Assembly (NCBI RefSeq): GCF_000876655.1
Contig: NZ_JYCN01000008.1
Location: forward strand, 1-64,000
Direction: 5' to 3'
Source of the DNA: Arthrobacter sp. SPG23
Lineage (GTDB): Bacteria > Actinomycetota > Actinomycetes > Actinomycetales > Micrococcaceae
DNA: 64,000 nucleotides
Both the position numbers and the translations under genes were made by a program. The notes beneath the pieces are model-generated. The model saw only the letters and a list, made by a program, of their open reading frames with translations, was not told the DNA's origin and did no database searches. Below, one piece after another: positions 52,265 through 58,039 of the stretch. Each line of letters begins with the position of its first letter. Position 1 is the first letter of the stretch.

Positions 52265-54380
52265 ATGGTCATGCCACTCCTAGACACAGCCTCCACCGTG
52301 GACGCCTCCCGGCCGTTTCCACTGGGTATCAGCGTTCCGCGCACGGGTTCTCCGGCAACGGACGATCCTCAGAGTGCCTGCGCCAATGTCGCGGTCTACG
52401 CCCCCGGGGTGGCGACGCTGGAAATCGCCTACTGCGCGCCCGGCGGCACATGGCAGCTGAAGACCCTGCCCAACATCACCAACGACGTCCACCACGGCAT
52501 TGTGGACGGCTTCCCCGCGGGATCCCGCTACGGTTTCCGCTCCTCGCCCGAGGACGACGCCTTGCCCGTATCGGTGCCAACCGTGGCGTTCGACGACGAC
52601 GGCGAGCAGCCGCTGCTGCTGGACCCGTACGGCCGCGCCGTGGATCAGCGCGACGGATTCCTCACCAATGTGCGCATGTCCGGCGGATTCGACTGGGGCG
52701 AGGACCGCAATCCCCACGTCTCGTGGCGCAACACCATCATTTACGAAGCCCACGTCCGTGGCCAGAGCATGCTGCATCCGGACATTCCCGAGGACCTCCG
52801 GGGCACGTACGCCGGCATGGCCCACCCGGCAATGATCGAGCATCTCGTCGGCCTGGGCATTACCTCTGTCCAGTTGTTGCCTGTCCACTTCCACTTGGAC
52901 GAGCCGCATCTGCAGAACCTGGGCATGACCAATTACTGGGGCTACAACACGGCGGCGTTTTTTTGCGCCCCATCCGGCCTACGCCACCCGTGCCGCCCAG
53001 GCTGCGGGCCCTCAGGCTGTGCAGGACGAATTCAAGGGCATGGTCAAGCTCCTGCACGCAGCCGGCCTGGAAGTGATCCTGGACGTCGTGTATAACCACA
53101 CGGCCGAGGGCGGCCGGGACGGCCAGACGCTCAGCTTCCGCGGCCTCGGCGAGATGCAGTACTACCGGAACGACGGCCACGGCAGGTACGTGGATACCAC
53201 CGGGTGCGGCAACAGCCTGAACTTCGGCCACCCCCGCGTGGTTCAGTTGGTCCTTGACTCGCTGAGGTACTGGGTGGACGAGTTCCACATTGACGGCTTC
53301 CGTTTCGATCTCGCGGTCACGTTGTGCCGCAACGCCGCGAACGACTTCGATCCGCACCACCCCTTCCTCGTGGCTGTCGCCGCCGACCCGGTGCTCTCCT
53401 CCGTCAAGCTGATCGCCGAGCCTTGGGACGTGGGCTACGGCGGCTGGCAGACCGGACGCTTCCCGCCCGGCTGGGTGGACTGGAACGACCACTACCGTGA
53501 TGCCCTGCGCTCGTTCTGGCTCGCAGACCGGGCCGCGATAGACGCCGGCGGCCAGGGCGGCTCCGTCGCCCGCCTGGCCGACTCCATCTCCGGCTCCGCA
53601 AGCCTTTTCGCGGACTCGGGACGGTCCCGGATGGCCTCCCTTAACCTCGTCACCGCGCATGACGGCTTCACGCTGGCCGACCTCGTGTCCTACGACCGCA
53701 AGCACAACGAGGCCAACGGCGAGCAGAACCGGGACGGCCACGGGGACAACCGCAGCTACAACCACGGCTTCGAGGGGCCCACCGAAGACGAAGAGATCCT
53801 GGCGCTCCGGGCGCAGACCAGCCGCAACCTGATGGCCACCCTGATGGTATCCATGGGCGTCCCCATGATCACCGCCGGTGACGAGATCGGCCGCACCCAG
53901 CAGGGCAACAACAACGCCTACTGCCAGGACAACCACATCACCTGGCTCGACTGGACCAGCACGCCCGAATCCCATGCCATGCTCAGGAGCACCAAGCGCG
54001 TCATCCGGCTCCGGAAGGAGTTCCTGGCCGGCCAGCCGCACCACTACCCTTCGCGGGACAAACAGGCCTACCTGCACTGGTTCGACGAACACGGCAAGCC
54101 CATGTCCATGGACCGCTGGAACGATCCCCAGCACCGGGTGGTCCAGCTGCTGCTGGGCTCGGACGACGGACAGGTGGACGGACTCGTGGTGGTGAACGGC
54201 AGCGCGCACGACATCAAGATCACGCTGCCCGACGTCAGCAACGACGAAGGCACGGGCAAGCGGCTGTTCGAACTCCGGTTGACCACGTCGGAGCTTCAAG
54301 ACCGCCGCCAGGGAGTCCGGGTGGCGGCCGGCGAACGGGACGTGGTGCAGTCCAATACCATCAGCATCTACCGCACGTAG
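52265..54380 (+). pseudogene. glgX: glycogen debranching enzyme GlgX, frame broken by one extra T
   Basis: The gene encodes a GH13 isoamylase-type debranching enzyme that cuts alpha-1,6 branches. The first part (52265 to about 52960) has the CBM48-like N-domain and NYWGYNTAAFF. At 52958-52964 there are seven T where six would keep the frame: with six it continues FFAPHPAYATRAAQ into the second part, which holds VVYNHTAEG, the nucleophile region DGFRFDLAVTL, the acid/base IAEPWDVGYG and TAHDGFTLADLVSYDRKHN. The repaired protein would have about 704 residues, normal for GlgX. Everything else is intact, so a sequencing error or a very recent mutation is likely. It starts the glucan locus. Confidence 0.9.
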
Positions 54381-54401: not shown

Positions 54402-54863
54402 ATGAGGGGTATCGCGAGGCTCCTGCTGTTGGCCGCGGTCCTGGTGCTCGTTGCCGGGCTGGGCATGCTGCTGTCCAACACGCAGGGGAGCCCGGATACT
54501 TCGGCGGGTTCGACGACGGCGTCCGCGCCCGCCGTCGGAAGTTCCGTCCCTGCCGTTCCCGACGGGCAAAACACCTCGGGGCTGGAGGCTGTCGCTGCCT
54601 CCGGCCTTCCGCCCGAGGCCCGGGAGGCCCTGGCCTTGATCGCCCGCGGCGGCCCGTACCCCTATTCGCGTGACGGTGCCGTCTTCAGCAATTTCGAGCG
54701 TCTGCTGCCGCGGAAGCCGGGCGGCTATTACAAGGAATTCACGGTCAGGACTCCCGGCGAATCGGACCGGGGAGCCCGCCGGATTGTCGTGGGCGGGGCC
54801 GGCGAAAAGTACTACACGCCCGACCACTATGAATCTTTTCTGCTAATTCTGGAAGGCAAATAG
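54402..54863 (+). CDS. secreted guanyl-preferring ribonuclease, RNase Sa/barnase family
   Basis: The 153-residue protein has an N-terminal hydrophobic signal or anchor (about 4-25), a Ser/Thr/Ala-rich linker to about 65, and a microbial RNase (N1/T1-type) domain at 68-150. The catalytic set matches RNase Sa: Glu112 in KEFTV, Arg123 and Arg127 in DRGARR, and His142 in DHYESF. No cysteine is present, so the disulfide of RNase Sa is missing. Such enzymes cut RNA after guanosine outside the cell and are toxic inside. It starts 21 bp after glgX and is followed after 8 bp by a barstar-like gene. Confidence 0.92.
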   Translation: MRGIARLLLLAAVLVLVAGLGMLLSNTQGSPDTSAGSTTASAPAVGSSVPAVPDGQNTSGLEAVAASGLPPEAREALALIARGGPYPYSRDGAVFSNFERLLPRKPGGYYKEFTVRTPGESDRGARRIVVGGAGEKYYTPDHYESFLLILEGK

Positions 54864-54871
54864 AGGCACGA

Positions 54872-55228
54872 ATGAAGATTTACTCCGCAGACACCTGGAC
54901 CATAGAAGAGCTTCGCGAGCAGGCGTCGGACGCCGGACGCCGGGTCCTGGTGATCCCGGCCGCCGATACCAAAAAGGAGGTGCTCCAGACATTCGGGGAA
55001 GTACTGGATTTCCCGGCGCACTATGGAGTGAACCTTGATGCCCTCAACGACTCGCTGCACGACTTCGCGGACACGGTCACGGACGACGGCAAGGAGCCTC
55101 TGACGTTTATCTGGCAGGTCCCGGCCGTTTTCCGTTCGGACCGGTCCTTCGGCATTATCTGCGAGATCCTGCAGGATGCCGAGAGCTACGCGGGCAAGAG
55201 CCTGTCCGTCATCACCGTCTGCCTCTAA
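54872..55228 (+). CDS. barstar-like ribonuclease inhibitor
   Basis: The 118-residue cytoplasmic protein contains the barstar core: HYGVNLDALNDSLHDF at 50-65, in which Asp56 and Asp60 match the barstar Asp35 and Asp39 that plug the barnase active site. It is longer than the 89-residue Bacillus barstar at its N-terminus and in the loop before IWQVP. GAGG lies 5 bases before ATG 54872. The tight spacing after the RNase indicates a co-expressed enzyme/immunity pair. A bidirectional terminator follows. Confidence 0.9.
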   Translation: MKIYSADTWTIEELREQASDAGRRVLVIPAADTKKEVLQTFGEVLDFPAHYGVNLDALNDSLHDFADTVTDDGKEPLTFIWQVPAVFRSDRSFGIICEILQDAESYAGKSLSVITVCL

Positions 55229-55251: not shown

Positions 55252-55297
55252 GTCAAAAACGCAACGCTCCCTCACTGAGGGAGCGTTGCGTTTGACG
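55252..55297. terminator. bidirectional terminator between the barstar-like gene and glgP
   Basis: The core arms at 55261-55274 and 55276-55289 are perfectly complementary around C55275 and extend through AAACG/CGTTT and GTC/GAC, giving A/T tracts on both sides. The core is a copy of the ACGCTCCCTCAC motif also seen at 14299. Confidence 0.9.
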
Positions 55298-55302
55298 GCG
55301 GG

Positions 55303-57921
55303 TCAGGCGTTGACGATCAGCCCGAGTTCGGCCCGTGAGGCGAGGGCTGAATGCTTGGGCAGCACGCGCACGGTGTAGCCGAAGGACCCGGACCGGTCGA
55401 TCAGCAGCGAGCCGCTGAAGAGGTAGCGTCCCTTGCCGAGGTCCTCCTTGGGCACCAGGTCGGCGACAGTGATGTCGGCCAGTTCGTCGCTTTCCTCGGC
55501 GCGGCCGAAGGCGACCTCCACAGCCACGTCGTCCGGATCGAGGTCGTGCAGCGCGATGTAGGCGTTCACCTGGAGGGTGTCGCCGATCTGCGGGTCCTCG
55601 GACACGCCCACCGAGTCGACGTGCTCCACCTGGATCTGGGGCCACGCAGCACGGATCCGTGACGTCCAGGCTGCCAGGGACTTGGACTGGGCGAAGTTAT
55701 CCGCGACGGCACGCCGGCCGGCGATGGCAGCGGGGCGGTAGAGGATGTTCACGTAGTCCTGCAGCATCCTCTCAGCGGACACGGCCGGGCCCAGGTGCGC
55801 CATGGTGTGCTTGATCATCGATACCCAGTGGGTGGGCACCTTCTGCGGGCCGGACTCCGACGGCCCTGCGGCTCCGGCGCCGTCGGACACGGTGAGTCCG
55901 TAGAACCGGGGCGCCACCTGCGTCTCGAGAAGCTCGTACAGCGCCGCCGCTTCGATGTCGTCCCGTTCCTCGGGCGAGGCGTTGTTGTTGGCCGTGGGGA
56001 TGGCCCAGCCGTTTTCGCCGTCGTACATTTCATCCCACCAGCCGTCCAGCACCGAAAGGTTCAGTGAACCGTTGATGGCTGCCTTCATTCCGGACGTACC
56101 GCAGGCCTCAAGCGGACGCAGCGGGTTGTTCAGCCAGACGTCACAGCCGGGGAAGAGCGTGCGCGCCATGGCGATGTCGTAGTTGGGCAGGAACGCGATC
56201 CGGTGGCGCACTTCGGGGTCGTCGGTGAACCGGACCAGGTCCTGGATCATCTTCTTGCCGGCGTCATCCGCCGGGTGCGACTTGCCCGCGATCACCAGTT
56301 GGATGGGGTGTGTCTCGTGCAGCAGCAGGGCCTTGAGCCGGGCGGGTTCCCGGAGCATCAGGGTGAGCCGCTTGTACGTGGGCACCCGGCGGGCGAAACC
56401 GATGGTGAGGACGTCCGGGTCCAGCACGGAATCAGTCCAGCCGAGTTCGGCGTCTGCCGCCCCGCGCTTCTTCCAGGCCGCACGCAGCCGCTTACGGACG
56501 TCCTCTACGAGCGAGACACGCATTTCGCGGCGAAGGGCCCAGACGTCCTCGTCGCTGACGTTGTAGGCAAGGTCCCAGCGTCCCATGGCTTCCGCCTCGG
56601 CGCCGAACTGCTCACGGGCCAGCTTGGAAACGCGGCTGTCCACCCACGTCGGGACATGGACTCCGTTGGTTACGGAGGTGATGGGAACTTCAGAGTGGTC
56701 GAATCCCGGCCACAGGGCCGAGAACATTCCGCGGGACACTACTCCGTGGAGCTTGGCCACGCCGTTGGCCCGCTGCGCCAGGCGCAACCCCATCACGGCC
56801 ATGTTGAAGACCGAAGGATTGCCGTCGGCAAAGTTTTCGCGTCCCAGGTCCAGGATCCGGGACACCGGCACGTCGGGAGCCAGGCCGGCCTCGAAGAAGT
56901 GCTGGATCTGGGAGACCTCGAACCGGTCGATGCCCGCCGGGACCGGGGTGTGCGTGGTGAAGACGGTGGAGGCGCGCCCCGCCGCGAGGGCTTCCTCCCA
57001 GGTGAGCGGGCTGTCCGAGGACATGAGCTCCTGGATGCGCTCCACGCCGAGGAAGCCAGCATGGCCCTCGTTGGTGTGGAAGACCTCCGGCGCTGCGCAC
57101 CCGGTGAGGCGCTGGTAAACGCGCAGGGCCTTGACTCCGCCCATACCCAGCAGCAGTTCCTGCTGGAGACGGTGGTCGCCGCCGCCGCCGTACAGGCGGT
57201 CCGTGATGCCGCGGGCGGCGTCGTCGTTGCCCGGAACGTTTGAATCGAGCAGCAGCAAGGGAACGCGCCCGACGTCGGCACGCCAGATGTGTGCCAGCAA
57301 CCGGCGCCCGTGGGGGAGCGGCAGAGAAATTTGGATGGGCTTGCCGTTGCCGTCGGGGGTTTCCTCGCGGAGGAGGGTCAGCGGGAGCCCGTCCGGATCA
57401 AGGACCGGGTAGGTTTCCTGCTGCCAGGCATCCCTGGAGAGGGACTGCTTGAAATAGCCGGCCTGGTAAAGAAGGCCGACGCCGATGAGCGGTACGCCCA
57501 GGTCCGATGCCGCCTTAAGGTGGTCTCCGGCCAGAATTCCCAAACCGCCCGAATACTGCGGCAAAACTTCGGTGATCCCGAATTCCGGTGAGAAGTACGC
57601 GATGCAGGACGGTGCATCGTCGCCGAGGCTCTGGTACCAGCGGGGCTGTTCCAGGTACCGGTCCAGGTCTTCGGCGGCGGCGTGCACGCGGCGGACGACG
57701 TCCTGGTCTGCGGCGAGTCGCTGTAGCTCCTCACGGCTCACGAGGCCCAGGAAACTGACGGGATCGTGTGCGCTCTCGTCCCAGATGGCGGGGTTGAGAC
57801 CTTCAAAAAGCTCCCGGGTGGGCCGGTGCCATGACCACCGCAGGTTGGTGGCCAAACGGGCCAACGGCCGGATAGATTCCGGAAGAACGGTTCGGACAGT
57901 AAATCTGCGGATAGCCTTCAC
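55303..57921 (-). CDS. glgP: alpha-glucan phosphorylase
   Basis: The 872-residue GT35 enzyme releases glucose-1-phosphate from glycogen or maltodextrin. It belongs to the actinobacterial/archaeal-type branch, with the N-terminal DUF3417 (NLRWSWHRPTRELFEGLNP), FSPEFGITEVLPQYSGGLG, HTNEGHAGF, TTHTPVPAGIDRF, and the PLP-binding region PLEACGTSGMKAAINGS with its lysine. The GTG start at 57921 is chosen because TAGTGT lies 7 bases before it and because the protein then begins with the conserved KAIRRFTVRTVLP; a TTG at 57942 is an alternative. It is divergent from glgE across 131 bp. Confidence 0.94.
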   Translation of the reverse strand: MKAIRRFTVRTVLPESIRPLARLATNLRWSWHRPTRELFEGLNPAIWDESAHDPVSFLGLVSREELQRLAADQDVVRRVHAAAEDLDRYLEQPRWYQSLGDDAPSCIAYFSPEFGITEVLPQYSGGLGILAGDHLKAASDLGVPLIGVGLLYQAGYFKQSLSRDAWQQETYPVLDPDGLPLTLLREETPDGNGKPIQISLPLPHGRRLLAHIWRADVGRVPLLLLDSNVPGNDDAARGITDRLYGGGGDHRLQQELLLGMGGVKALRVYQRLTGCAAPEVFHTNEGHAGFLGVERIQELMSSDSPLTWEEALAAGRASTVFTTHTPVPAGIDRFEVSQIQHFFEAGLAPDVPVSRILDLGRENFADGNPSVFNMAVMGLRLAQRANGVAKLHGVVSRGMFSALWPGFDHSEVPITSVTNGVHVPTWVDSRVSKLAREQFGAEAEAMGRWDLAYNVSDEDVWALRREMRVSLVEDVRKRLRAAWKKRGAADAELGWTDSVLDPDVLTIGFARRVPTYKRLTLMLREPARLKALLLHETHPIQLVIAGKSHPADDAGKKMIQDLVRFTDDPEVRHRIAFLPNYDIAMARTLFPGCDVWLNNPLRPLEACGTSGMKAAINGSLNLSVLDGWWDEMYDGENGWAIPTANNNASPEERDDIEAAALYELLETQVAPRFYGLTVSDGAGAAGPSESGPQKVPTHWVSMIKHTMAHLGPAVSAERMLQDYVNILYRPAAIAGRRAVADNFAQSKSLAAWTSRIRAAWPQIQVEHVDSVGVSEDPQIGDTLQVNAYIALHDLDPDDVAVEVAFGRAEESDELADITVADLVPKEDLGKGRYLFSGSLLIDRSGSFGYTVRVLPKHSALASRAELGLIVNA

Positions 57922-57928
57922 CTGCGTC

Positions 57929-57934
57929 ACACTA
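57929..57934 (-). promoter_or_regulatory. -10 box TAGTGT, leaderless start of glgP
   Basis: On the minus strand TAGTGT ends 7 bases before the GTG at 57921. Confidence 0.45.
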
Positions 57935-58039
57935 ACGGACAAGATGGGCCGTCGGAACAGGTTTAGGTTTCTTTTAGGTAAATGACGGATTGCTCGGGGA
58001 AAAACGGAAGTTCCCTTAGCAAAATGGGGGATTTCTCGA

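Follow-up and report, generated by a model that had tools for sequence, protein, structure and literature searches.

Barnase and barstar are the textbook binding pair, and we know of no function for members of the barstar family without an RNase. A search of the literature for orphan barstars, Arthrobacter barstars, and glgX-linked RNases found no directly relevant paper. Simple barnase-barstar gene pairs have been described, with an inhibitor (Imm-barstar) that carries a DxxxD motif (PMC3482391). In the complex, Asn33 of barstar is a hydrogen-bond donor to the backbone of the catalytic His102 of barnase, a contact present for 99% of a simulation run from the complex (PMC4207830). The window analyzed here, the first 64,000 nt of contig NZ_JYCN01000008.1 of Arthrobacter sp. 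SPG23, encodes an RNase and a barstar which, as a pair, are a plain member of this known kind. The most unusual feature is not visible from the window alone: among related genomes the RNase has been lost repeatedly, with the barstar retained.

The RNase gene (54402-54863, forward strand) is conserved across the genus and encodes a 153-aa RNase Sa-type enzyme that is predicted to be guanyl-specific and exported. It matches the Pfam profile PF00545 with an E-value of 1.9e-23 (83.3 bits, against a curated cut-off of 24). Its best relatives in a sequence search of the PDB are from the RNase Sa family (1py3, 2e-31; RNase Sa, 3e-26), and the catalytic domain (about residues 62-150) matches these structures along its whole length. 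The four catalytic residues named in the original prediction were correctly numbered and are intact: Glu112 (codon 54735-54737), Arg123 (54768-54770), Arg127 (54780-54782), and His142 (54825-54827), all on the forward strand, align with RNase Sa Glu54, Arg65, Arg69, and His85, and none has been lost in any of the 98 aligned genus relatives. The catalytic domain is preceded by a hydrophobic N-terminal segment (about residues 6-24) and a Ser/Thr/Ala/Pro-rich linker (about residues 27-60). The hydrophobic segment makes the proposed signal likely, and either a cleaved signal or an uncleaved anchor would fit. Lipoprotein export was rejected for the genus as a whole, a lipobox-like motif being found in just 2 of 144 RNases. 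A lack of cysteines, also proposed, was correct for the RNase, as for 141 of 144 genus relatives, but not for the inhibitor, which has two (C97 and C117).

The barstar gene (54872-55228) follows on the same strand after a gap of 8 bases, with both ORFs confirmed in position. Its 118-aa product matches PF01337 with an E-value of 4e-12 (46.4 bits, curated cut-off 23.4). Searching the PDB with the sequence gave nothing significant (best E-value 0.44); because it is too divergent for such a match, the fold was assessed from an AlphaFold2 model (pLDDT 94). The top PDB fold matches of this model are barstars (probability 1.00, TM 0.60-0.73 by target length), the best being 1bgs. The inhibitor is larger than barstar, as had been noted (118 vs. 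89 aa), and its predicted structure shows one additional beta-alpha unit at the N-terminus. It keeps both key aspartates: Asp56 and Asp60 (codons within 55037-55051, forward strand) align with barstar Asp35 and Asp39, forming the DxxxD motif, and are invariant in the genus, in 145/145 barstars paired with an RNase and in 50/50 orphans. In the model they are carried by a helix spanning residues 55-71, with Asn54 at its cap. The two proteins are the sole matches to PF00545 and PF01337 in the source genome; neither matched any PADLOC anti-phage defense profile or anything in NCBIfam.

The pair does lie between glgX and glgP. Upstream and co-directional, glgX (52265-54380, forward strand) is represented in this assembly by two ORFs (52265-53095 and 53019-54380), split by one extra T in a seven-T run (52958-52964). 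This is probably an assembly error or slippage; in one related locus (L063) the gene is intact over 705 aa. Downstream, the barstar gene converges with glgP, encoding an alpha-glucan phosphorylase (55303-57942, reverse strand; PF00343 and PF11897), and between them lies a perfect inverted repeat of 18 nt with 1 nt separating its arms (55257-55293), probably a two-way terminator. A scan for promoters and terminators found nothing above chance. Because the RNase start is only about 22 bases past the glgX stop, and because the barstar gene and glgP converge on the inverted repeat, glgX, RNase, and barstar are probably co-transcribed. In L187, L123, L255, and many further loci of the genus, an insertion of ~1.8 kb separates the barstar gene from glgP; in the three loci read it contains an ORF, convergent with the barstar gene, resembling a thiamine-diphosphate enzyme of the pyruvate oxidase type. 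Genome G106 has a second glgP-like gene (contig C1, 1770948-1773554), with 82% identity to that of the window; the 5.6 kb flanking its 3' end contain no match to glgX.

The order glgX-RNase-barstar-glgP is the rule in the genus and is also found in other genera of the family, with glgX 55-70% identical. In a sample of the family, 10 of 32 genera had the pair. Beyond the genus, one and the same set of 26 genomes carries both genes, and the count of orphan barstars there is 0/26, possibly because divergent barstars are less readily detected. Two loci from another family genus (L225 and L226, from G243 and G259) have a single barstar flanked by two RNases. In Streptomyces, all 14 loci have the arrangement rpe - regulator - RNase - barstar - guaB, with genes adjacent or overlapping. 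One of these RNases (L075, 7857-8294, Streptomyces aureus) has a lipoprotein-type signal, and its gene overlaps the barstar gene. The pair is found between glgX and glgP throughout the genus and in other genera of the family, but not in Streptomyces. Since the site is fixed in the former and Streptomyces has a fixed site of its own, the pair is old, vertically inherited chromosomal equipment at lineage-specific sites.

Among 206 genomes of the genus, the barstar is present in 197 and an RNase match in 148. All 148 of the latter have the barstar, as do 49 of the 58 genomes with no RNase match (p = 7e-6, uncorrected for relatedness). Together with the invariant catalytic residues, this bears out the original assignment of the two genes to a barnase/barstar-type RNase and inhibitor. 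In terms of complete genes, the RNase match is complete in 145 of the 197 barstar genomes, whereas the other 52 have the barstar at the same site without an intact RNase. Roughly one related species in four has lost the enzyme and kept the inhibitor. One of the 52 (G018) has a frameshifted RNase and three (G141, G342, G360) show RNase remnants; in the rest, the barstar is within about 130 bases of glgX. Seven genomes lack both genes and have glgX and glgP as direct neighbors. On a tree of glgX plus glgP, the RNase state requires at least 22 changes by parsimony; with no regain allowed and G018 taken as a loss, the figure is 27 losses. These counts assume little regain by recombination, which among relatives would inflate the number of losses, but not the loop contrast described below. 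G018 was scored as RNase-less in the parsimony and residue counts and in an alternative scoring of branch changes, and as RNase-bearing in the main branch-change and dN/dS analyses, with the same outcome. Another RNase as a retained target in the orphan genomes was rejected: of 50 RNase-less genomes searched with PF00545, 49 had no match elsewhere, and the match in the remaining one was a known remnant. Two orphan barstars are themselves broken (L105 in G082 and L122 in G142), one by a frameshift and one by an in-frame stop near the C-terminus.

Orphan barstars as a group are not decaying, and outside one loop they are under full purifying selection. Median dN/dS is 0.15 for orphans, from species pairs within RNase-less clades at dS 0.15-0.9, and 0.17 for paired barstars. 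RNase-less branches make up 30% of the tree length and carry 28% of the amino acid changes outside residues 47-61. Inside these residues, which form the RNase-facing loop and the start of the helix (55010-55054, forward strand), they carry 66 of 98 changes (67%). The resulting contrast between paired and orphan branches, 32/66 changes inside the stretch vs. 839/325 elsewhere, has an odds ratio of 5.3 and p about 1e-14, treating changes as independent and with the 47-61 boundary set after the first sample had been seen. A slightly different scoring of changes gave the same result, and a sliding window showed its only peak at residues 49-61. Residues 47-61 are the only stretch to change faster after RNase loss. 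Eleven residues are unchanged in all 50 orphans: Asp56, Asp60, His63, Trp81, Arg88, Cys97, Glu98, Gln101, Asp102 (aligned here with barstar Glu76), Glu104, and Tyr106. The constraint on the loop, tied to the presence of the RNase, and the absence of any RNase without a barstar are indirect evidence that the two proteins bind in the manner of barnase and barstar; the undiminished constraint on the rest of the barstar, acidic patch included, suggests that it does something else too.

Residue 54 (codon 55031-55033, forward strand), the equivalent of barstar Asn33, is Asn in all 145 paired barstars of the genus and, by inspection, in all 19 from other genera. Among the 50 orphans it is Asp in 37 and Asn in 13, with no other residue. 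The tree has 13 changes at this position, counting either direction, and the 37 cases of Asp54 amount to about a dozen events. In a test of phylogenetically independent pairs, the change from Asn54 was one-way (about 8 vs. 0, among 16 pairs; p about 0.008), while for Tyr51 this test yielded p about 0.06. The first 150 genomes, with 134 barstars, revealed the pattern, and genomes added later repeat it, with Asn54 in 48/48 paired barstars and Asp54 in 8/13 orphans. The four genomes with a frameshifted or remnant RNase still have Asn54. Aspartate is without the hydrogen-bond donor of asparagine and so could not make a bond of the Asn33 type, yet it is a good helix cap.

The reading we favor, and consider probable, is that of a cognate RNase/barstar pair, vertically inherited between glgX and glgP, whose inhibitor has an additional, RNase-independent job; its retention after enzyme loss suggests as much. 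The pair would consist of an exported guanyl-specific RNase and a cytoplasmic barstar, probably transcribed with glgX, with the barstar blocking the active site before export. Asp60 and Asp56 would sit on the catalytic arginines and histidine, and the 50-54 loop would pack on the histidine loop. Where the RNase is deleted, purifying selection on the remainder of the barstar is unaltered; only the contact loop is freed, and there Asn54 often becomes Asp. In a more specific version, for which we see about equal reason for belief and doubt, barstars throughout the genus have two functions, RNase inhibition and an ancient housekeeping role using the same acidic face (Asp56, Asp60, Asp102) with another partner, and the change from Asn54 to Asp reflects a trade-off in the binding loop. 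If so, the recurrent natural losses of the RNase bring this trade-off to light, Asn54 at the helix cap being needed to grip the RNase and Asp taking its place once the RNase is gone. The ~22 or more losses amount to a replicated natural experiment, separating barstar residues kept for RNase binding from those retained for another purpose. Through them, whether barstar has a second function becomes a testable question in ordinary soil bacteria.

Other readings account for parts of this picture. The original prediction offered two, of which cargo for competition, taken as mobile and recently acquired, is extremely improbable: the patchy presence of the RNase might suggest it, but the remnants show that patchiness within the genus to be loss, and neither a variable insertion site nor a recent gain was seen. 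Cargo or an island was rejected, the glgX-glgP site being shared across the genus and several others. The second, that an exported RNase feeds on environmental RNA and is co-regulated with glucan storage via glgX, is doubtful. Co-regulation can be proposed tentatively from the convergent inverted repeat and the operon-like spacing with glgX, which is conserved across the family. The Streptomyces pair, however, is beside guaB and not glg genes, so a metabolic link with glucan is not general; the RNase is often lost with glgX and glgP staying in place; and scavenging would leave the orphan barstars unexplained.

For the orphans themselves, it might be supposed that they are young leftovers with too little time to decay. 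The four genomes that keep Asn54 beside RNase traces, and the two broken orphans, look like this, but there are whole clades of 11 RNase-less species with intact barstars. With the dN/dS values and change counts given above, decaying remnants were rejected, and young leftovers seem very unlikely. The main rival to a second job is immunity, with barstars kept by strains that make no RNase as protection from guanyl RNases that neighbors release or deliver, and the loop tracking different enemy RNases. Keeping an inhibitor after enzyme loss is the order expected for toxin/immunity pairs, and the acidic binding patch is invariant in orphans. On the other hand, the RNase-contacting loop is exactly what orphans lose, residue 54 goes to Asp without diversifying, where every paired barstar including those of other genera has Asn, and no delivery route for such an RNase is known here. 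On balance we think immunity unlikely, and a second, RNase-independent job remains the preferred explanation.

Compared with RNases Sa, Sa2, and Sa3 of Streptomyces (PF00545), the window RNase has the same Glu/Arg/Arg/His set in a catalytic domain aligned over its full length. It differs in having no cysteines and hence no disulfide, in its N-terminal hydrophobic segment and 30-35 residue linker, and in its glgX-linked locus. The Streptomyces RNase/barstar pair belongs to the same two families and has Asn at the position of residue 54 in every barstar with the loop covered, but it occupies a different fixed chromosomal site, and no orphan barstar was seen in that small set of 14 loci. With Bacillus barnase-barstar and the simple pairs (PMC3482391), the window pair shares a secreted-RNase gene directly 5' of the barstar gene, the DxxxD motif, and the barstar fold. 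Unlike barstar, its inhibitor has the extra N-terminal beta-alpha unit, with His50 and Asn59 at the positions of barstar Tyr29 and Trp38; and unlike barnase-barstar, in the genus of the window the enzyme has been lost again and again and the inhibitor retained.
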